From: Labrys wisconsinensis
GTDB lineage: Bacteria; Pseudomonadota; Alphaproteobacteria; Rhizobiales; Labraceae
Reading direction: 5' to 3'
Length of the DNA stretch: 64,000 nt
Assembly (NCBI RefSeq): GCF_030814995.1
Contig: NZ_JAUSVX010000005.1
Span: 1 to 64,000, forward strand
Notes under the pieces: model-generated
Databases searched by the model: none
Told to the model about the DNA's origin: nothing
The model's input: only the letters and a program-made list of their open reading frames with translations
Shown here: positions 10,373-31,829 of the stretch, one piece after another
Layout of the letters: every line of letters starts with the position of its first letter
Numbering within the stretch: position 1 is the first letter of the stretch
Position numbers and translations under genes: made by a program

Positions 10373-11836
10373 TCACTGGCTGGCGACGACGACGAGGCGC
10401 TTGATCTCGCCGCGCTGATAGGCCTGCAGGAACTTGTTGTAGTCCCGGAAGGAGACGCAGCCGTTGGAATCGCCGCGCGGCCCGAGCATGTAGCTGTGCG
10501 CGAGCAGGCCGACCCGGCCGTGCACGGCGCCGATGCCGCCGACCGGGGTGAGACGCAGCGCTCGCACACCGTGGAACAGCGATTCGCGCTCGCTGAGCGC
10601 GTAGGTATGCGGCGGGGTGGCGCCGCGCATCTTGACGTTCACCTGGCGCGGATCGTCGCGCATGGTGCCCATGCCCGAATGAGCCTCCAGCCGCTCGCCA
10701 TTGGGCAGGTACACGGTGCGGGCGCTGATGTCGTAGACGGCGGTGCCGTCGCCGGCCGCCGGCGCGGAGCTCCGCCCTCCGAACAGCCTCTCGAAGAAGC
10801 TGCGATTGTCCGCCTGGACCGGCGGGGCCGGTTGCTGCACCGGCTGCACCGGTTGCGGGGCCGCCACCCGCATGCGGTGCCGCGGCTGCGGCCCGGCCAT
10901 GCGCGGGCGTTCCGGGACGACGGTCGAGGGCGCGTTCACGGGCCGCGGCGCCGGCAGGGGAATGGCTGGCGCCGGCGCCTCGAGAACCGGTCGCTCCACC
11001 GGCAGCGGCACGGACGGCGCGACGGTTTCGATCGTCGCATCGTCGGGTTCCGCGTCGGGCGCCGCCGGCTCTTCGGCTGGCACCCTGTCGGCGCTCTCCG
11101 GCGCCGGCACGGGGAAATCCGGGCTCTCGCGCTCGTTCGCCGGCGGGAAGGACAGGCTGGCGAGGATCAGCCGGCCGGGCTCGAGCGTCCGGCCCGGCTC
11201 GCGCCGGACTTCGGCGAGGGCAGCCTGCCAGGCCATGCCGGATGTCGGGCGCAGGCCGGCATAGAGCGGATGGCTGTGCGCCATCGAATGCCGCACGAAG
11301 CCGCCGAGCAGCCCGGGTTCCATCAGCGCATCGCGCCAGCGGCCGGCCACGAAGTCGACCCGCGCCACGGCGAAGGAGAAGCCGGGATCGAGGAGCCGGC
11401 CGTTCCCGCCCGCGAGCGGATCGGGCGCCAGCGCCGGACGTGGAGCCGGGGCGGTCGCGACGAGGCGCGCCAGCCTGTCGCCCTGGCTGGCGAGGCCGGC
11501 CGCGACCGCAAGGCCGAGGGCGACGATCGCCGCCGTCGTCCGCCAGGGAAAACGGCTCTGTGGCGTGTCGATCTCGGGAATCGAGGCGAGGACTCGCGGC
11601 TGTGGGGCCTCGGAGCGCGGCTGCGGCGTCCTCGGATAATCCACACGCCGGGTGCGTGCATATTGCAGGGGGCGCTCGGCGGGGCCGGCCGCGACCGGTC
11701 GGCCGCTCGGCCGAAGCGATCGTTGGTGCTGTGAAGCGCCGATGTCCGCCAGCGTCGACGAGGCACGCGCCCGGCCGATCACGACCGAAGCAACATCCTC
11801 ATTCCTGCTTGGCACGGTGCTGCGCGTGTCAGGCAA
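10373..11836 (-). CDS. Membrane-anchored DUF2778 (Tlde1-like) L,D-transpeptidase-type protein
   Basis: 487 residues. A basic cytoplasmic N-terminus (about 1-95) is followed by one membrane segment (TTAAIVALGLAVAAGLA, about 100-116). A long Pro/Ala/Glu-rich periplasmic stalk follows, and then a C-terminal domain of about 140 residues. That domain begins AVYDISARTVYLPNGERLEAHSG and ends with AHSYMLGPRGDSNGCVSF, the His and Ser-x-Gly-Cys active-site pattern of DUF2778, the fold used by type VI effector Tlde1 and by chromosomal homologues. It likely acts on peptidoglycan peptides in the periplasm. No type VI genes are nearby, so a housekeeping cell-wall role is more likely than toxin delivery. 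Confidence 0.85.
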   Translation of the reverse strand: MPDTRSTVPSRNEDVASVVIGRARASSTLADIGASQHQRSLRPSGRPVAAGPAERPLQYARTRRVDYPRTPQPRSEAPQPRVLASIPEIDTPQSRFPWRTTAAIVALGLAVAAGLASQGDRLARLVATAPAPRPALAPDPLAGGNGRLLDPGFSFAVARVDFVAGRWRDALMEPGLLGGFVRHSMAHSHPLYAGLRPTSGMAWQAALAEVRREPGRTLEPGRLILASLSFPPANERESPDFPVPAPESADRVPAEEPAAPDAEPDDATIETVAPSVPLPVERPVLEAPAPAIPLPAPRPVNAPSTVVPERPRMAGPQPRHRMRVAAPQPVQPVQQPAPPVQADNRSFFERLFGGRSSAPAAGDGTAVYDISARTVYLPNGERLEAHSGMGTMRDDPRQVNVKMRGATPPHTYALSERESLFHGVRALRLTPVGGIGAVHGRVGLLAHSYMLGPRGDSNGCVSFRDYNKFLQAYQRGEIKRLVVVASQ

Positions 11837-12284: not shown

Positions 12285-13568
12285 CTAACGGGCAAGCGCA
12301 TCTCGCGCCAGTCCGACCGTCAGAGAGCCGAGGAACAACAATGAGGCGCCGACCACCAGGGCTCCGGAAAAAAGAGCGAACGTATCGGGAAATGCCACCG
12401 ATTCCGATTGTGATGGCGAAGCGAAAACCTCGACATATTTTTGTTGACGCGCCGACTCGACCCGAGCGTCCTCGAGGGATGACCGAGCAGCATAAAGATT
12501 CTTCTCTGCAAAATCTGCATTCGCCTTGAGCTTTTCGAACTGCATCAATTGCCCAGCCTGCGAATTGTTCAAACCTGCGAGCCGGTCGCGGATGGATCGT
12601 TCCTGCTCCATCAGAGCCGCGATCTGACCCTGGATCGCCCGTTGCCGCGGGCTCGTGTCGCTGCCGAGGCCGACGAACTGGGCGAGGTTGACGCGAGCCG
12701 TGGCAATCGACGTCTCGATCTGTCCCAGAATCGTGTTCAGCATCTGTATGCTGGCGACCGGGTCGACGTTTCCGTTCTTCGTCTGCCAGTCGGCCAAAGC
12801 CGTCCGTGCATCTGAGAGCTGGTCTTCTGCCTGCTTGACTTCGTTTTCCATCAGGCGAAGCCAGTCCCGGCGAGATCTCACGTTCATCTTATCCAGGAAT
12901 GTCTCGGAAATACTCAAGAGATTTGATGCCATCGTCTGCGCGTCCGCCGGCGAGTAGGCGTAGACCCGCATGGCGACCGTCTGCTCCAACAGATTGAAGC
13001 GCACGTCGATAGCCGACTGATAGAGATCATATTCCTTGTCGCTCGGAGAGCGATTCAGCAGGCGGTCGAGCAGGCTGGGCCCGGGGTTTTTCATCCGCTC
13101 GCCGAAATCGATCTTCTGGTCGAGCTCCTTCATCGCGTCGCGCGACGAGAGAAAGTCTCGCACCGCATAGCCGTCGACGGCGCCGCCGAGCTGCGAGGCG
13201 ATCGACGACAGGGACGTGCCGCCGGACGAAGAAGAACTCGGATTCTGTGCAGCCGTTCCGCCACGGATCCCGAACCGAACTTCCGAAACGTACATCGGTA
13301 CGGAGATGGCGAATTTGTAGATGACGGTAACTGCCAGCGGAGCAAACAGGATCAGCAGGCTCAGAAGCCATTTTCTCAGCTTCGCCCGTCGACGACGAAT
13401 CCTGGAGTCATAGGCCAGTTCCGCATCCGAAGCCCGCCTGGCCGAGGTCGGCAGAGCGTTAAATAAAGTCGCCGTCGTCAGCCACAGGATCTTCCTCGTC
13501 CGCAACCACCCCCCCCGGAACTGGGGCTCGGAGCGGGTATCGGCCGAGGGCGGCATCAAGTCTGTCAT
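12285..13568 (-). CDS. kpsE: Capsule polysaccharide export inner-membrane protein (KpsE-like, PCP family)
   Basis: 427 residues from the ATG at 13566-13568; a TTG one codon earlier is also open. A membrane segment near residues 65-92 (KWLLSLLILFAPLAVTVIYKFAI) is followed by a periplasmic region opening with YVSEVRFGIRGG, typical of KpsE/BexC/CtrB. A long helical region (about 215-365) is followed by a second membrane segment at the C-terminus (FALFSGALVVGASLLFLG). It bridges the inner-membrane ABC exporter and the outer-membrane channel. Its 5' end overlaps the ATPase-like gene by 110 bp, which is unusually long and implies tight coupling. Base composition is somewhat AT-richer than the catabolic regions. 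Confidence 0.88.
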   Translation of the reverse strand: MTDLMPPSADTRSEPQFRGGWLRTRKILWLTTATLFNALPTSARRASDAELAYDSRIRRRRAKLRKWLLSLLILFAPLAVTVIYKFAISVPMYVSEVRFGIRGGTAAQNPSSSSSGGTSLSSIASQLGGAVDGYAVRDFLSSRDAMKELDQKIDFGERMKNPGPSLLDRLLNRSPSDKEYDLYQSAIDVRFNLLEQTVAMRVYAYSPADAQTMASNLLSISETFLDKMNVRSRRDWLRLMENEVKQAEDQLSDARTALADWQTKNGNVDPVASIQMLNTILGQIETSIATARVNLAQFVGLGSDTSPRQRAIQGQIAALMEQERSIRDRLAGLNNSQAGQLMQFEKLKANADFAEKNLYAARSSLEDARVESARQQKYVEVFASPSQSESVAFPDTFALFSGALVVGASLLFLGSLTVGLARDALAR

Positions 13569-14169
13569 CAATCGTCAGGCTCCCTCTGGCAACGCACAGC
13601 GCCTTGTCGCACATTCCTGTGACAACGGCGGAACTGTAGGACGAAACGACCAGCATGCGGTCCTTGACCCTATCTTCGAACAACAGCCGCCAAAGCTGGG
13701 CGAATTGATCGTTGGTAAAGCCCAAAGACCCTTCCAAGAAATAAATATCAAATTTCGGCAACAATGCGAGCGCATAGGTAAACTCCATTCTTTCGGTTGG
13801 CGTGAAGCGGCCGACGGGAGAACGGAGGCTTTCCACGTTCGGAATCAGGTCCGATATGAGATCTTCAGCTAGGGAATAATTTAAGTCGTAGATGCGGCAA
13901 ATCATTGCAACGACGTCCCAGCCCGTCAGGTGCCCGCGGATGAATCCGACCCGGCCAATGGGCCAGGACGCGCGTCCCGACCGTTCCACCCGCCCGATGC
14001 GGGGCGCTCGCGTGCCGCACAGGAGATCGATGACTGGATTGCGGGTTGCCGGATTTTCGACGAGCAGGGCGTAGCGCCCGGGCTCGATCCAGTTCGAGGC
14101 CTGCTCCAGCACGACCACGGGGGTCTTTCCCAAGGAGATTTCGAAGGTCACGTTGCGCAGACGGATCAT
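13459..14169 (-). CDS. KpsT-like ABC subunit with all nucleotide-binding motifs degraded
   Basis: 236 residues aligning along its length to KpsT-type capsule-export ATPases: MIRLRNVTF start, WPIGRVGFIRGHLTG at the Q-loop region, FDIYFLEGS at Walker B, VVSSYS at the switch. Yet the Walker A GxxGxGKST is replaced by VENPATRNP, the signature SSGM by FTPTERME, the Walker B Asp-Glu by Leu-Glu-Gly, and the switch His is missing. The frame is long and clean with no sign of frameshift, so this looks like a conserved non-hydrolysing subunit rather than a pseudogene. It lies upstream of and overlaps kpsE and is about 330 bp downstream of kpsC. The candidate permease is at 23129-24304. Confidence 0.8.
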   Translation of the reverse strand: MIRLRNVTFEISLGKTPVVVLEQASNWIEPGRYALLVENPATRNPVIDLLCGTRAPRIGRVERSGRASWPIGRVGFIRGHLTGWDVVAMICRIYDLNYSLAEDLISDLIPNVESLRSPVGRFTPTERMEFTYALALLPKFDIYFLEGSLGFTNDQFAQLWRLLFEDRVKDRMLVVSSYSSAVVTGMCDKALCVARGSLTIDDRLDAALGRYPLRAPVPGGVVADEEDPVADDGDFI

Positions 14170-14503: not shown

Positions 14504-16639
14504 TCAGAACCGGGGCAGACGTATGCCGGTCATTCGAAGCGAATATTCGGCGCTGCGCACGAATTGCGCAATCGGCTGCGGGAATGCGCCGTACTTGACG
14601 GCCTGCTCGTCCTCGAAGGCGATGAGATCCTCCGGTTCGCACGGTAGCAGCGTACGAGGATAGATATAGTGGGGGTACAGGATCAAGGTTGCCCCGGTCA
14701 ACTCGTCAAGGGAGAGCCTGCGCCGCGGTCGAATCAGCCGGTCCTCCGTGACGCCCCAGCCGGCGAAGAAGGGCGTTCCCCAGGTGACCACCGGCTTGCC
14801 GTACAGGAGGGCCTGGAAGCCCGCGGGCGAGGACAGGACGTGAACTTCGTCGGCAAGATCGATCAATGGCAGGATCGGTCCATCGGCGATCGCGGCATCG
14901 GCAAGATCGCGCAATTCTTCCCATCCCCGCCCGGCGGCCCGGTTCCGGGTCGCCACATCGGCATGGGCCTTGTAGACGAGGAAATGATCCGGCCTGTCGG
15001 CACGCACCGCTTCCAGAAGGGCGGCGGTCGATCTTACGGCCGGAGATCCGCTGGCGGACGATGCGTCGACCTCCATGGGTTCGGGAACCAGGATGACCTT
15101 TTTCCCCTCCGCTCGTTGCCGCAGGTCGGCGAGGCGCTTGCGCAGATCCGGCGTCAGCAGCCTGCCGTTCGCGGTCGCGGCGCGGCGCATGATGGTTTCG
15201 CGCAGCGCCCGGGCCCGGGCGACGAGCGCCGGCGGCAGCTCCGTCGCGGCCAGAAGGCGCACGAGATCGCTGTCATCCTGCGCGGCCGCGAGGCTCGACT
15301 GGACGTTCACGCAGAACAGGGGCGGGATGGCGGCCTGCGGGTCGAACCCCGTCGCGCGCAGGAACCCCTCCTGCAGCCGCAACACCCGCGTGCCGGCCGC
15401 TCGCACCTCGACTTCGGCGGACTGGCCGGTCTCCGTCTCGTCTATGCAGACCGCCGCCTGCTTGGCCCGGGCGAGATCCAGGGCCGATCTCAGGCCGGCG
15501 AACATGATGCTCTTGCCGGGCCCACCCAGCAGCCTTCGGACGATCCGCCGTTTCAGAGGCGAGAAACCGGCGCAGACCGCGCGATCCGGCAGCGAAAGAT
15601 GCCGACGTCGTTCTGCGACGAGGCGGTCGGCCGCCTCGTCGAAGGTCGCGATGCGCTCACGGACCGGGTCGACATAGCGCGGGTAGCGCACCAGGGCCGC
15701 TCCCACCAGCGCATCGAGCGAGGGCCTCAGGGCAGCTCGCCGGGCCAGTGCGGCGCTCGCCGATGTATTGTCGGGACGATCATCGGTGAGACCGTATCCC
15801 GCATAGAAGGGGACACCGAACACGGTCACGGGGATGCCGCGCATCATGGCCTCGAAGCCGAGCTGGCTCGACACCGTCCAGACCTCGTCGACGACGTCCA
15901 GCACGGCGTGCGGCGACACCAGGTCGTCGAGCACCTCCAACCCGTCTTCCTGCGCCAAGGTGGTCAGCACGCCCGCCGCAAGGCCGGCGGTGACGTCGGG
16001 ATGAACGCGCACGATGAGGCGTGCTCCCGGCCGATCACGACGTGCCGTATCGATCATGCGCCGAAAGTCGTTCTGGCTTGCCAAGGCACCGGCGATCGAG
16101 CGATCGCCGGCCACCTGATCGACGAGCAGGATCCGGGCCTGTCCCCCGGCCGCCAGAGCCACGGGGCGGTCCGGCAGGTGATTGTACTTGGTCAGCCGGT
16201 CGGACACGACCCGTTCCCGCGCGGCGCGCCCCAGGGCCGCCAGCCAGGCCGAATCCTCGTTCGCAATGATGGCTTCCAGGCGCGAAGGGCAGGAGGCATC
16301 ATAATAGACGCCGAGGTCGTCGATGATCAGGGAAAAGGCGCGCGCCTGCTGCTTGCCGAGGCCGACGGAGCGAAGGAAGCCGTCCTCGAGCACCCAGAAG
16401 GGCAGCCTGGACTGGGCGGCAAAGGCCAGGCCGCGCAAGGCCGACATGCCCTGCCCCCAGCCGACGACGCCATCCAGCCGTGAGGTCAGGGTCGACCGCA
16501 CGTGGAGAGATTGCGTTTCCAGAAACAGCGCGAGATGCGGCACTGAACGGAGGACCGAGGCGGCCACTCCAATCTTGGCCCCTTGCAGGGGAAGCCACGA
16601 CGGACGAGAAATCCCGTCGGATCGATCGAGTTGATGCAT
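14504..16639 (-). CDS. kpsC: KpsC-like capsule polysaccharide beta-Kdo transferase, two modules
   Basis: 711 residues from the ATG at 16637-16639; the frame is open further upstream to 17389 but without family features. Two similar halves are visible. The first has WVLEDGFLRSVGLG (about 75-88) and VSSQLGFEAMMRGIPVTVFG. The second has LRLQEGFLRATGFDP (about 390) and LSSPAGFQALLYGKPVVTWG, each followed by a F-[YF]-A-G-[YW]-G turn and YPRYVDP / YPHYIYP. KpsC adds alternating beta-Kdo residues to the lipid anchor of group 2 type capsules. Presence of KpsC indicates a Kdo-linked phospholipid-anchored capsule. No kpsS partner lies in the window. Confidence 0.9.
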   Translation of the reverse strand: MHQLDRSDGISRPSWLPLQGAKIGVAASVLRSVPHLALFLETQSLHVRSTLTSRLDGVVGWGQGMSALRGLAFAAQSRLPFWVLEDGFLRSVGLGKQQARAFSLIIDDLGVYYDASCPSRLEAIIANEDSAWLAALGRAARERVVSDRLTKYNHLPDRPVALAAGGQARILLVDQVAGDRSIAGALASQNDFRRMIDTARRDRPGARLIVRVHPDVTAGLAAGVLTTLAQEDGLEVLDDLVSPHAVLDVVDEVWTVSSQLGFEAMMRGIPVTVFGVPFYAGYGLTDDRPDNTSASAALARRAALRPSLDALVGAALVRYPRYVDPVRERIATFDEAADRLVAERRRHLSLPDRAVCAGFSPLKRRIVRRLLGGPGKSIMFAGLRSALDLARAKQAAVCIDETETGQSAEVEVRAAGTRVLRLQEGFLRATGFDPQAAIPPLFCVNVQSSLAAAQDDSDLVRLLAATELPPALVARARALRETIMRRAATANGRLLTPDLRKRLADLRQRAEGKKVILVPEPMEVDASSASGSPAVRSTAALLEAVRADRPDHFLVYKAHADVATRNRAAGRGWEELRDLADAAIADGPILPLIDLADEVHVLSSPAGFQALLYGKPVVTWGTPFFAGWGVTEDRLIRPRRRLSLDELTGATLILYPHYIYPRTLLPCEPEDLIAFEDEQAVKYGAFPQPIAQFVRSAEYSLRMTGIRLPRF

Positions 16640-17382
16640 GGATTCGCGTCTCGGCTTTGCGCCGCTTCTGCGTCCCCCCGGCGCGATATGCACCACGAAC
16701 GCCCAGCCAATGCAATCGAAATGGATGGTGGACCCGGTCGCCGAGGTCGGGACCGTTGCCCGCGCGCCACGGGCGGGCCGTCCAGACCATGCAGGCCCGC
16801 GCCGACCGGCCCTTCGACCCGAAGGATCGAAGCGGCCTGCCGGGTCGAGCTCGAATCTCCCCCTTAGATTCGGCCGGCCGGCGGTGCCGTGCGCCGACGG
16901 CACGGCATTTGCTTTATCGATGGATGCGGCAGGACGACCGCAGCGCCGACCAGTTCGTCTATTGACGTCGACACGCATTTCAGAGGACCATTCGAGGCGG
17001 GGGCACTCGACGTCTGACGATAGCCTGGCGGGGCACGACGCCGGGCTGCGGGAGAATGCGCATGCCCCTGATTTCACCCCATGATGCACGCGAGCAGTGG
17101 GAATCGCGGTCCGGCGGCAGCCCATAGGGCCGATCGGCGTCGTCACGCGGACGGCACCGTTCGAGAATCCTAATCTGGAGTGCAGCATGCGAGAAGGTGC
17201 ACCGCAGCGGGCGCGAGACGGCTCGTCGAGTGCTCGCGAGCCGGCATCGTCGGCCGTGACCGTCCATGTGGTTCGGGCCGATTCGATCGCCGCTCGCGGT
17301 GGACAGGCTCGGCGTGCTGGCGGATCGGGCGGCCGCGGGATCGCGGCGCGGCCTCCTGATGCGCAACGCCGGGGCATTGCCG
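16640..17382. other. 743-bp divergent intergenic region
   Basis: Separates leftward kpsC from the rightward glycosyltransferase gene and presumably contains both promoters. Open frames on either strand run through it but show arginine/alanine-rich non-protein-like composition. No clear promoter or dyad was identified. Confidence 0.4.
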
Positions 17383-19446
17383 ATGTCAAGTGATCTCGAT
17401 GCCGGTGTGCGGCATTCCCAGACCATCATGCCGAAACGCCCGCCAGCATCGCCCGCCCATGAGGCCGCAGCCCGGCATCAGCTCAAGGTCCGACAGCTCG
17501 AGAGCATGATAACGACGCTGCGGGCGGAAATCGTCAGCCTGCAGAGCCAGACCAGCGAGATCCAGATCCTGCGGGATCAGGCGCATCAGATCCGTCTGTC
17601 GAAGAGAAGCACCGACCATCAGATCGCAAGCCTCCGCTCCCTGCTGAAGGAGAAGGACGAGCAGATCGCGTCGCTGTCGAACAGCGACGCTCTGAAAGTG
17701 GGGCGCGCCCTTCTCAAGATGCGGCGTCGTCGCTTCGGAATCGCGCGGCTCGCAGCCCATATGGTGGGTGTCTGGTGGCGGCTCTCGACGGTGCGGGAGA
17801 AGGCTTCGTCTCCGGTCAAGGAGGAAAAGACGGCGACGACCGTCTTCAACGAGGCCCGTTTCCGCCTCGAGCAGAACGGGCTGGCCGAGGCCTTGACCTG
17901 GGTCCGGGCGCAGGCGACCGGCGACGAACTTCTGGCGCGTATCCTGGTCGAGTTCGGCCGGACGGTGCGAAAGACCAACCTGCCTCAGTGCATCGAGCTG
18001 TTCCGCGAAGCCATCTCGCTCGACAGGAAAGCCTCGCATATCAAGCTCCTGGCGTTCGGCCTCTTCGATGACGGCCTGCTGGCCGAGCCGCGGCAATTGC
18101 TGGATGCCATCATCCAGGGTGGCGCCGTGCTGACCGCAGCGGAGCTTCGGCGGGGAGAGCAGATCATCGCTCTGGACCGGATCAGGACCAACGGCCTGCA
18201 TGTTCCGGCCCGATACGAGGGCGTCGAGAAGAAGGGCGGCCCCGCCCGCGCCTTGGTTCTGGCGAGTCAATCGCTGCCCTATCACAAGACCCCGGCCTCC
18301 CTCAGGGCCTATCGCACCGCACGGCGCCTGGCGGGTCTGAAGATCGAAACCGAGGTCGTGACCCCGCCGGGATATCCGAGCGAGGAGAAGGCGCAGGCAA
18401 CGAGGCGCCTGGTTGAGGACATCGGCGTGCGGCTGCTTCCTCCCGTCCAGGTCCCGGCGGAGCTCTTCGACCTCTATGCGGTCGAGGCGGCGAAGGAGCT
18501 CCAGGCCTTCGGAAAGCTGTTCGGACCGCAAGTGATCGTCGCGGAATGGTCGGAAGGGTTTGCCGCCGCCGGGCTCCTGACGGCCAGGGCCCTGTCCGTG
18601 CCCTATGTTCTGGACATCGCCGAGATCTGGAAGCCGGCTCTCCCGCACCATCCGGGCTGGGAAGCCACCGAGCGCTTTGCCGCGGAGACCAAGTTCTGTG
18701 CCCTGATCGCCGCGGAGGCCGATTGCGTTCTGTCGCGGAGCCGGAGGATAACCGACCTCCTGATCGAGCAGGGACTGCCGGCCGAGCGGGTGCGAACAAT
18801 ATCGGACGCCCCGGAGCCACCGAAGGATCTGGCGGCTGCGCGGGCCAGTCTGCGCAGCGAGCTCGGCTTGAACGCCGAGATCGTGCTGGGCTTCGTCGGC
18901 GGCCCATTTCCGTTCTGGGACCTGGAGGCGGTCGCAAGAGCGACCGTCGAGCTCGTGGCGAATGGGCGCGATGTGGCTCTGCTGGTCGTGGGGGTTGGGC
19001 GGCGTATCGAAATGCTGGCCGCATTGGCCCGCGATCTCGGCATCGCCGACCGCGTCGTGACCGTCCCCCGGCCTGCCGGCAGTGATCCGGCCCGCTATTT
19101 CGCGGCGATGGATGTGGCGATCTTCCCGTCGCGGCCGTCACATGTCGTCGCTCTGCGGGCTCCCATGGAAATCTGGCAGGCAGCGGCGTATGGTTGCGCC
19201 GTCGTCGCGGGCAGTTCCGTGGACGTGGGCGATCTGGCCGGCACGGGCGGTCGATCCGTCGGCTACGATTCCGAAGATCCCCAGGGCCTGACGCGTGCCC
19301 TTGCGTCCCTGCTGGACGACCGGGAACACCTCCGCCTCTACCGGTCCGACCTGCAACGCCGGGCAAACGAGGCTGCGATCCAGACCAAGGCCGCTTTCGA
19401 GGAGATGGTCAGGTCGCTCGTGCCGATGGAGGTGAAGTCGGGCTGA
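17383..19446 (+). CDS. Coiled-coil/helical module fused to GT4-type glycosyltransferase
   Basis: 687 residues from the ATG at 17383; the frame is open to 17266 and another ATG lies at 17428. Residues about 30-100 form a coiled coil (RQLESMITTLRAEIVSLQSQ and on). Then comes a short basic-hydrophobic segment, DALKVGRALLKMRRRRFG, and a helical region with EALTWVRAQATGDELLARILVEF. The last 380 residues form a GT-B glycosyltransferase: LVLASQSLPYHKTP, LDIAEIWKPALPHHPGW, GFVGGPFPFWDLEAV, and a donor-side region near PMEIWQAAAYGCAVVAG. It should add a sugar during capsule assembly. The N-terminal module recurs as a separate protein at 32957-33616. Confidence 0.8.
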   Translation: MSSDLDAGVRHSQTIMPKRPPASPAHEAAARHQLKVRQLESMITTLRAEIVSLQSQTSEIQILRDQAHQIRLSKRSTDHQIASLRSLLKEKDEQIASLSNSDALKVGRALLKMRRRRFGIARLAAHMVGVWWRLSTVREKASSPVKEEKTATTVFNEARFRLEQNGLAEALTWVRAQATGDELLARILVEFGRTVRKTNLPQCIELFREAISLDRKASHIKLLAFGLFDDGLLAEPRQLLDAIIQGGAVLTAAELRRGEQIIALDRIRTNGLHVPARYEGVEKKGGPARALVLASQSLPYHKTPASLRAYRTARRLAGLKIETEVVTPPGYPSEEKAQATRRLVEDIGVRLLPPVQVPAELFDLYAVEAAKELQAFGKLFGPQVIVAEWSEGFAAAGLLTARALSVPYVLDIAEIWKPALPHHPGWEATERFAAETKFCALIAAEADCVLSRSRRITDLLIEQGLPAERVRTISDAPEPPKDLAAARASLRSELGLNAEIVLGFVGGPFPFWDLEAVARATVELVANGRDVALLVVGVGRRIEMLAALARDLGIADRVVTVPRPAGSDPARYFAAMDVAIFPSRPSHVVALRAPMEIWQAAAYGCAVVAGSSVDVGDLAGTGGRSVGYDSEDPQGLTRALASLLDDREHLRLYRSDLQRRANEAAIQTKAAFEEMVRSLVPMEVKSG

Positions 19447-23128: not shown

Positions 23129-24304
23129 ATGATGTATTTGTCGATTCTACTGCGAGCTGTTCTCGGTTTGAATCCGAACAACTTGACGACTCGACGCTTG
23201 GCCTATGAGGAAACAGCGAGCGCCCTCAGCCGCGTGCTGGCGGATGGCGGGTTCGACGAGATCGAGGTCGCGCTGCAGGAGCAACTCCTGACTCTTGCGA
23301 TCCGGCAAGTCGAGGCGGATATCCGCAACGGTGTCGATATCACATCGCCGGACTACTACCCGACCGCATTGGCAGAGGCGGAGTATCGGGCCAAGGAGCG
23401 CGCGGCTCTTCTGCGCAAGAAAAGTGGCGCGGCCAATCTCGGCGGCGAGCCGGATCCGAGCATTGTGAAGCGCGCCGCCAGCGTGATGGAGCGACTCAAA
23501 GTTCTGGATCAGCTCAGCGCTTTTTCATGCGGCGCGGCGGACAGGCCATCGCGTATTTCTGTCATATACGCTTTGCTGATCCGATCAATTCATAATATTG
23601 CGGCCGACAGTAAGATTGCGATCGTCTGGGTTGTCCTTGAGCCGGCCTTTCTCATCGCGTTCATTGTCGCGATGTATTGGCTTGTCGGCTCACACCAGAT
23701 CATGAATATGGACATTGCGCCTTTCGCCGTAACCGGAAGCGTTTCATGGGGGCTGTTGCGCGCATCGAGCGTGCGAGTGGGGTCGGCCATGCTGCGCGCC
23801 CGCGACGTCCTGAACCTTCCCCCCGTCTCGCCATTCGATGTCGCGATGACGGAGGCTCTCGTCAGCCTGCTGATCTATAGCGGTGTATTCGTCGTCGCCA
23901 TCGGCTTCGTATTGGTGCTTGGACTTGGCGATCCGCCAGATGATCTTTTGAACGTCGTCAAATATTGGCTCGGCCTTTGGGTGGCGGCGACTGGCGTCGG
24001 GCTCATGTTCAGCTACTTCTTCTTGCACTGGTCTTACGGCAAACGAATTATTCCCGTTGCATGGAGAGGTGTCAGTCTGGTTTCCGGCGTGCTCTTCGTA
24101 TCGGAGCAGTTTCCGGAAGACGTGAAGGGTTACCTGCTGATGAACCCGATCCTGCACGGCATCCAGCTCATGCGCGACGCCTATTTCGCCGGTTACAAGA
24201 CGGTTGAGGCTAGTGCGCTGTACTTTTTCTGCTCGGCGGTGTTGATGCTGATGGTCGGCATGGCTTGCGAGCGTCGGAGCAGGCGCATGATCGCTCCGGG
24301 CTGA
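23129..24304 (+). CDS. ABC-2 polysaccharide exporter permease with extra N-terminal domain (KpsM-like)
   Basis: 391 residues. The C-terminal 250 residues are an ABC-2 permease with six membrane segments. It begins SVIYALLIRSIHNIAADSKIAIVWVVLEPAFLIAFIVAMYWLVG and ends near MNPILHGIQLMRDAYFAGY, the usual KpsM/RfbA words. About 130 residues precede it (NLTTRRLAYEETASALSRVL, DITSPDYYPTALAEAEYRAKERAALL), hydrophilic and helical, which ordinary KpsM lacks. It should form the inner-membrane channel for the capsule polymer. The only ATPase-like partner in the window is the motif-less one at 13459-14169, over 9 kb away on the other strand. AT-richer than neighbours. Confidence 0.83.
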   Translation: MMYLSILLRAVLGLNPNNLTTRRLAYEETASALSRVLADGGFDEIEVALQEQLLTLAIRQVEADIRNGVDITSPDYYPTALAEAEYRAKERAALLRKKSGAANLGGEPDPSIVKRAASVMERLKVLDQLSAFSCGAADRPSRISVIYALLIRSIHNIAADSKIAIVWVVLEPAFLIAFIVAMYWLVGSHQIMNMDIAPFAVTGSVSWGLLRASSVRVGSAMLRARDVLNLPPVSPFDVAMTEALVSLLIYSGVFVVAIGFVLVLGLGDPPDDLLNVVKYWLGLWVAATGVGLMFSYFFLHWSYGKRIIPVAWRGVSLVSGVLFVSEQFPEDVKGYLLMNPILHGIQLMRDAYFAGYKTVEASALYFFCSAVLMLMVGMACERRSRRMIAPG

Positions 24305-29989: not shown

Positions 29990-31273
<1,284 letters not shown>

Positions 31274-31829
31274 GTGAGACGCTCCATTCGGCTGCACAGT
31301 TCGCGTCCAGGATGACGCAAGAAGCAATTTTCGTCGGCGTCAAGGTTCCGCGAGATCCATGGCTCGGACGAGCTGGGTGGATGCCGCCGGCTTGCCGCGA
31401 GGACCTTGCCCCGTCCGGCCTCGAAGCCGGGCGGGGGCGTCATCTCGTACCGAGTGATCCATGCCGGGGAGCACGGCCGTTGATCATTGCCTTGGAGACC
31501 TTGAGTCTGAGTAAGGCCGCCCTAATCGTCGAATGAAGCCGTCACGCTCGCGGAACATCGCGCGTTGCCATGTAAGGACTTCCAACAATCCGATATGGCG
31601 GCCTCGGCGGCTGCTCATGTGTCGCAAGGTCGTTTTCCCGGTCCCCGTCGATCGCCACCAAATCGATGCAGTTCTTCAAGAAAGGTCGTCCTCCGCAACG
31701 GTCTCGCCGTGCGGGGGCTGTGCCGAATTGCGCCGGCGAGCGACGCCGGCGCTTCGTTCCATGTCGATTCCGGATTGCGCAGAGGGACGACCATTGCGGG
31801 ACGCATCCGAATGTCAGATGATCGCCAAT
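31274..31829. other. 556-bp intergenic region
   Basis: Between the dehydrogenase gene and the methyltransferase gene, both leftward. Composition becomes more AT-rich to the right. Open frames here carry no recognisable motif. It contains the ribosome site of the dehydrogenase gene (31281-31287) and probably its promoter. Confidence 0.35.

Follow-up and report, generated by a model that had tools for sequence, protein, structure and literature searches.

The genome analysed here (Labrys wisconsinensis, designated G000, 8.93 Mb) encodes a KpsT-family NBD homologue that lacks the ATP motifs of its family and belongs to a conserved group of proteins with the same losses. We refer to this product, encoded by the ORF at 13459..14169 on the minus strand, as pKpsT (pseudo-KpsT); coordinates are those of the window, the whole stretch of 64,000 nucleotides that was analysed. 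With moderate confidence we interpret pKpsT as a conserved, KpsT-derived pseudo-NBD that would have a structural or gating function within an ABC-2-type polysaccharide exporter. The cluster around it includes the following genes:

12285..13571, minus strand: KpsE-type polysaccharide co-polymerase (NCBIfam BexC/CtrB/KpsE, E 8.5e-57)
13459..14169, minus strand: pKpsT, KpsT-family NBD homologue lacking Walker A, the signature, the catalytic Glu, the D-loop and the switch His
14504..17389, minus strand: KpsC-type capsule synthesis protein (PF05159, E 1.2e-56)
17266..19446, plus strand: glycosyltransferase of the polysaccharide cluster with GT4 type domains (Pfam)
23129..24304, plus strand: KpsM-ext, KpsM-type ABC-2 permease (KpsM model, E 2.6e-18) with an N-terminal extension of about 135 residues
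26187..28433, minus strand: TPR-glycosyltransferase with relatives in Labrys and Caballeronia cassettes
29990..31327, minus strand: nucleotide-sugar (UDP-glucose/GDP-mannose) dehydrogenase, a recurrent cassette member

A KpsM permease and a KpsE co-polymerase in one cluster mark a capsule system, and the window holds both; the permease proposed in the initial annotation is verified by its match to the KpsM model. The pKpsT gene adjoins kpsE, and KpsM-ext lies 9 kb off on the opposite strand. PF05159 (KpsC/KpsS-type) is present in this genome, and the OPX genes (PF02563) lie on contigs C3 and C29, with none on the window's own contig. A Tlde1-domain protein (10373-11836, minus strand; PF10908, E 4.1e-30) is encoded beside the capsule cluster. 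The overlap of about 110 bp between pKpsT and kpsE, initially offered as a sign of selection, is present only with the upstream kpsE start, and because similarity to other KpsEs begins well within that ORF, the overlap on its own is a weak sign.

The minus strand of 13459-14169 is a single open frame of 236 amino acids, as first described, and the plus strand of the same span is interrupted by stops. Homology to KpsT is real and extends across most of the domain: phmmer matches pKpsT to Schlegelella thermodepolymerans KpsT (PDB 8tsi_A) at E 2e-15 over residues 34-212, and NCBIfam VexC matches residues 12-204 at E 8.9e-6, with a score far under the model cut-off. A Pfam scan of pKpsT at E 1 reported no family. 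The AlphaFold model of pKpsT (5-row alignment, mean pLDDT 48.6) is too poor for use, and a Foldseek search with it, which placed KpsT at the top but with a TM-score of about 0.39 and an rmsd of 10 A, was set aside.

All of the motif losses initially listed were confirmed: Walker A reads VENPATRNP and the signature FTPTERME, FLEG stands in place of an Asp-Glu Walker B, and SSY occupies the switch His position. The loss is concentrated in the ATP motifs, since pKpsT keeps 4/27 conserved KpsT columns (those shared by at least 70% of 84 intact KpsTs) within these motifs and 26/54 outside them (Fisher one-sided p 0.0028). Over six rows of the family described below, which we call window-type, 2/48 conserved cells are retained in Walker A (GxxGxGK(S/T)) and 1/48 in the signature (YSSGM); the catalytic Glu after Walker B and the switch His are found in none of its 14 rows. 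A KpsT dimer has two ATP sites, each formed by the Walker A of one subunit and the signature of the other, so pKpsT, with neither, is predicted to form no complete ATP site, either alone or with an intact partner. We place it in a putative variant form of ABC-dependent capsule export, outside the ATP-hydrolysing KpsT family.

The window-type family has 14 members: four from Labrys, one from Pinisolibacter, four from Mesorhizobium plasmids and three from Caballeronia plasmids, and those of genomes G138 and G1033. The rows are not independent, with the four Mesorhizobium, the three Caballeronia and three of the Labrys rows being near copies within their genus. Among 59 relatives searched besides the source genome, orthologues occur in three of the four other Labrys and in Pinisolibacter (36-41% identity), and a contig scan with the first five members matched Labrys okinawensis, Labrys sp. 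KNU-23, Labrys sp. WJW and Pinisolibacter aquiterrae; the remaining Labrys (G004) has a weak pKpsT match only and no PF05159. The plasmid members are 38-42% identical and the G138 member 30%. Among 385 genomes of the class the window alone exceeded 100 bits, and 398 genomes of the phylum yielded one extra member (312 bits; next match 142 bits), that of G1033, which belongs to another class and has a cassette sharing 52-66% identity with the Caballeronia one. All seven plasmid records label the protein just 'ATPase' or 'hypothetical protein', and ABC_tran (Pfam, E 1) matches 0/13 members scanned; annotation should be read with this in mind, as these proteins go unseen as ABC proteins.

Motif loss is common to all 14 members, in both alpha- and beta-proteobacteria, and alignment of the homologues, proposed initially as a check, shows the loss to be conserved; the counter-evidence named at the outset, intact motifs in the homologues of close relatives, was not seen among these members. 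At the Walker A Lys position the residue is Arg or His, with Lys in Mesorhizobium; the preceding Gly is absent from 14/14, and every row has Pro at the position of an invariant KpsT Gly. Eighteen residues (e.g. P40 and R73) are near-invariant in the family (13 or 14 of 14) but seldom found in canonical KpsT, one of them falling at a gap of the canonical KpsTs, and 15 residues found in at least 90% of canonical KpsTs are retained by no window-type row. The window copy itself has F and T in place of the family's W122 and P123. Reading frames are open in all 14, and dN/dS for pKpsT is 0.103-0.107 in 3/3 Labrys pairs, the window's own copy being too distant for the test; in the same three Labrys, values are 0.061-0.153 for canonical KpsT, 0.061-0.111 for KpsM-ext and 0.072-0.092 for KpsE. 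These ratios indicate purifying selection on pKpsT in Labrys, and for these genomes the earlier statement that the gene is maintained by selection holds. Loss of every ATP motif and a window gene order rearranged relative to relatives might suggest that the gene is drifting as a pseudogene or that a formerly normal capsule locus has decayed locally, but we regard this as extremely improbable: the value near 1 that drift would give was not seen, the dN/dS of about 0.10 already contradicts it, and so do the equal loss in alpha- and beta-proteobacteria, the family-specific invariant residues and the open frames.

The gene neighborhood is conserved together with the protein. An N-terminally extended KpsM shares a cluster with pKpsT in 14/14, and the order KpsM-ext, pKpsT, KpsE is found in 12/14 (three Labrys, G138, three Caballeronia, four Mesorhizobium and G1033). 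No KpsE was found within 20 kb in Pinisolibacter; the linear record of Caballeronia SL2Y3 stops inside kpsE; and the KpsE of Mesorhizobium, annotated as hypothetical, scores E 1e-101 or better against the KpsE profile. The complete order, seen in Caballeronia Sq4a and G1033, runs nucleotide-sugar dehydrogenase, TPR, glycosyltransferase, OPX, KpsM-ext, pKpsT, KpsE, TPR and SDR, and Caballeronia SL2Y3 and M1242 have the same order as Sq4a as far as their stretches reach. The OPX gene of Caballeronia sp. SL2Y3 (L271 9538-10672) is annotated as two overlapping pieces and is a single piece in Sq4a and M1242. The KpsM extension (23129-23530 in the window, about 135 aa) is present in 13/13 aligned KpsM-ext proteins and in that of G1033; a Pfam scan of four members at E 0.01 matched nothing in it, and the model predicts most of it to be helical, with confidence ranging from moderate to low.

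The predicted model of KpsM-ext (mean pLDDT 62.6) matches KpsM 8tsi_C with a target TM-score of 0.84 over 249 columns, and by this model the permease fold is retained. In S. thermodepolymerans KpsM, replacement of R35, R89 or R94 (by Lys or Ala) or of W45 (by Phe or Leu) is reported to lead to loss of export (PMC11041684). In that numbering, the window KpsM-ext retains W45, R89 and R94 and has Ile at R35, and the window-type set alone has a clear pattern, with three residues retained and R35 lost (W45 14/14, R89 14/14, R94 13/14, R35 0/14). Among KpsMs beside an intact KpsT the counts are W45 38/52, R89 27/52, R94 8/52 and R35 35/52. A test over all degenerate KpsTs, with dead-KpsT permeases expected to lose these four canyon residues, was non-discriminating, because KpsMs beside an intact KpsT vary too (all four, RWRR, in 1/52; gaps at R35 and W45 in 7/52). 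An Asp between TM2 and TM3, in a segment that we take from the ABC-2 fold to be the coupling helix, is present in 51/52 KpsMs beside an intact KpsT and in 2/14 window-type KpsMs (the window and G138). Of ten KpsMs encoded next to other degenerate KpsTs, nine keep it and one is truncated at the site, so that, with the window also keeping it, decoupling is not general.

Degenerate KpsTs extend past this one capsule locus. A search with the first five members matched 107/397 Hyphomicrobiales genomes at E 1e-12, and motif scoring of 117 loci and the window, with three duplicates removed, covered 115 KpsT-like proteins, nearly all from Hyphomicrobiales. Thirty-one are degenerate, a proportion that is not an unbiased frequency as the query was a pseudo-KpsT profile. 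All 31 are without both the signature and the switch His; 20 are also without Walker A and 11 retain it. The other 84 scored as intact, five of them deviating at one signature residue (YSNG, YSPG, YSAG, YSDG, YSAG). In the 27 genomes from which the degenerate proteins are drawn, KpsM (two being contig-end fragments), PF05159 and OPX are each present in 27/27, and OPX is also present in G1033 (28/28); the remaining pathway thus appears to be in place where KpsT is predicted to be dead. In the genus coded g35, 11/11 KpsT-matching genomes have degenerate KpsTs only (G038, G079, G113, G170, G193, G214, G234, G251, G268, G325, G362), and in several of these KpsM is unlinked from the degenerate KpsT.

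In a quick tree of the 115 KpsTs there are two label changes between intact and degenerate, and a careful tree of 75 rows also has two (bootstrap range 2-4). The latter includes L263, mis-scored because its His is shifted and canonical in all else; once it is left out, a single branch (support 74/93, not starred) sets apart the 31 degenerate rows in this tree (28 of the 31 above and three added). Long branches are a known danger in such trees, which neither establish nor refute a single origin of the degenerate KpsTs. In the careful tree, the window-type rows group with two G261 proteins (10 rows, support 100/95), as do the seven window-type rows without G138 and G261 (98/86).

The initial annotation suggested looking for an intact KpsT paralogue, with the possibility that a second, active ATPase makes the exporter asymmetric. 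With at most 114 candidates per genome scored against a profile of 12 intact KpsTs, an intact KpsT (>300 bits) was found in 3/27 genomes among the matches listed, all Labrys (G001-G003), and the next score among those matches, 185 bits, is that of a degenerate KpsT. The matches listed for the other 24 genomes include no intact KpsT, and neither, judged by sequence, do those for the window's genome. The next KpsT-like protein of the window's genome (L002, G000:C12:3681-4307) has its own KpsM-KpsT-KpsE-KpsC cluster and retains Walker A (GPRGCGKST) and the Asp-Glu, with the signature and switch His lost; it might be able to bind but not to hydrolyse ATP. The canonical KpsT-KpsE pairs of G001-G003 (L041, L042, L043) have no KpsM within their 20-kb stretches, and the KpsMs L051, L055 and L056 of these genomes lie elsewhere, none having an NBD closer than about 1.5 kb.

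Heterodimeric ABC transporters with one degenerate site, such as TAP1/2, ABCG5/G8 and BmrCD, show that evolution can keep an NBD with degenerate motifs, as with pKpsT, and known examples retain one complete composite site. In these the partner supplies the complete site, whereas pKpsT has lost both halves and an intact partner is mostly not found. Pairing of pKpsT with an intact KpsT encoded elsewhere would account for the canonical KpsTs of G001-G003 with no KpsM near them, but those KpsTs could be served by L051, L055 and L056, each composite site would still miss one half, L002 is also without a signature, and 24/27 degenerate-KpsT genomes have no intact KpsT among the matches listed, with G1033 having only a Wzt-level match besides pKpsT. 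An asymmetric exporter of this kind, poorly supported by these results, is highly doubtful in our estimate, and no partner NBD predicted to complete a composite site was found for pKpsT.

Another ABC ATPase, such as a Wzt-type or shared NBD, might instead drive KpsM-ext, with pKpsT as an assembly factor or regulator, and we consider this unlikely. Matches of about 155-169 bits in the intact-KpsT search start at profile position 15-19, and the solved Wzt and TagH/TarH proteins score 141-172 bits; such Wzt-level matches occur in several genomes, and the one inspected, L003 of the window's genome, has intact motifs. NBD sharing is known in other ABC systems. Wzt-level ATPases of some of these genomes could in principle serve KpsM. 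Against this, L003 has its own adjoining permease, and the 30 KpsM loci examined (of 42 matches listed) revealed no intact NBD at a distance of up to about 1.5 kb, 13 having an NBD-like match in that range, degenerate in every case, and 17 having none. The loss of the TM2-TM3 Asp in 12/14 window-type KpsMs also argues against coupling to a canonical NBD, with the window retaining it.

A third alternative is that export has been lost and that KpsM-ext, pKpsT and KpsE form a scaffold, sensor or glycosyltransferase platform, for which the abundance of TPR proteins in the cassettes would provide a rationale. The sole precedent seen for a role of such machinery beyond ATP-driven export is in Bordetella pertussis, where the whole capsule transport machinery, and not the capsule, is reported to affect BvgS signalling (PMC4264864). 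An OPX export gene is close to the permease in the Caballeronia, Mesorhizobium and G1033 cassettes, and three canyon residues out of the four reported as essential are retained, and we think loss of export distinctly unlikely.

A structural or gating pseudo-NBD is the simplest reading of the conserved neighborhood, selection and retained permease. It is supported at the sequence level by conserved motif loss, purifying selection in Labrys, co-occurrence with KpsM-ext and mostly with KpsE, the absence of an intact KpsT from the matches listed for most of these genomes, and a permease that keeps its fold in the model and most canyon residues; of the two roles first proposed the structural one fares better, as something that we infer. 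In this mechanism pKpsT would dock on the KpsM-type permease beneath the KpsE cage and have a structural or gating role in a polysaccharide exporter that spans the envelope, and the KpsM-ext/pKpsT pair would form an ABC-2-type conduit working without ATP hydrolysis by its own NBD. Polymer might be moved by chain growth at the cytoplasmic glycosyltransferase and TPR cassette proteins, or by an unrelated motor. We infer the binding of pKpsT to KpsM, the occurrence of export and the source of energy. Counting against the same interpretation, the window KpsM retains the TM2-TM3 Asp, three Labrys genomes hold an intact KpsT, and R35, reported to be essential in S. thermodepolymerans (PMC11041684), is replaced in 14/14 window-type KpsMs. 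One Walker B mutation in that organism abolished export, with hyaluronan undetected at the surface, and this single tested case (PMC11041684) speaks against export without an ATPase.

Among the closest described systems, KpsMT-KpsE of S. thermodepolymerans (PDB 8tsh, 8tsi; PMC11041684) shares with the window the KpsM fold and most canyon residues. Also alike are the KpsE-type co-polymerase, the same-genome OPX and KpsC/S-type genes, and the homology of pKpsT to KpsT across residues 34-212; the window-type KpsM, unlike that of S. thermodepolymerans, carries the N-terminal extension. The S. thermodepolymerans KpsT hydrolyses ATP and export requires its Walker B Glu (PMC11041684), whereas pKpsT is without the ATP motifs. 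The Wzm/Wzt O-antigen exporter likewise has a permease and NBD related to KpsM-ext and pKpsT, but solved Wzts are ATPases, unlike pKpsT, and L003, the Wzt-like protein inspected, keeps its motifs intact beside a permease of its own. A search of the open-licence PMC literature found no description of such a pseudo-KpsT exporter.

More broadly, and tentatively, at less than even confidence, these proteins may represent an ancient KpsT-derived pseudo-ATPase lineage that forms a class of exporters built on an ABC-2 permease without ATP hydrolysis by the NBD, with one branch being a cassette that travels between alpha- and beta-proteobacteria, and with this being the only KpsT-type system in many Hyphomicrobiales. 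KpsMT capsule export is held to be driven by ATP hydrolysis by KpsT. Conserved clusters for which the sole KpsT found is predicted to be incapable of hydrolysis would provide a test of whether an ABC-2 permease passes polysaccharide without a motor of its own, and would make an alternative energy source for its passage testable.
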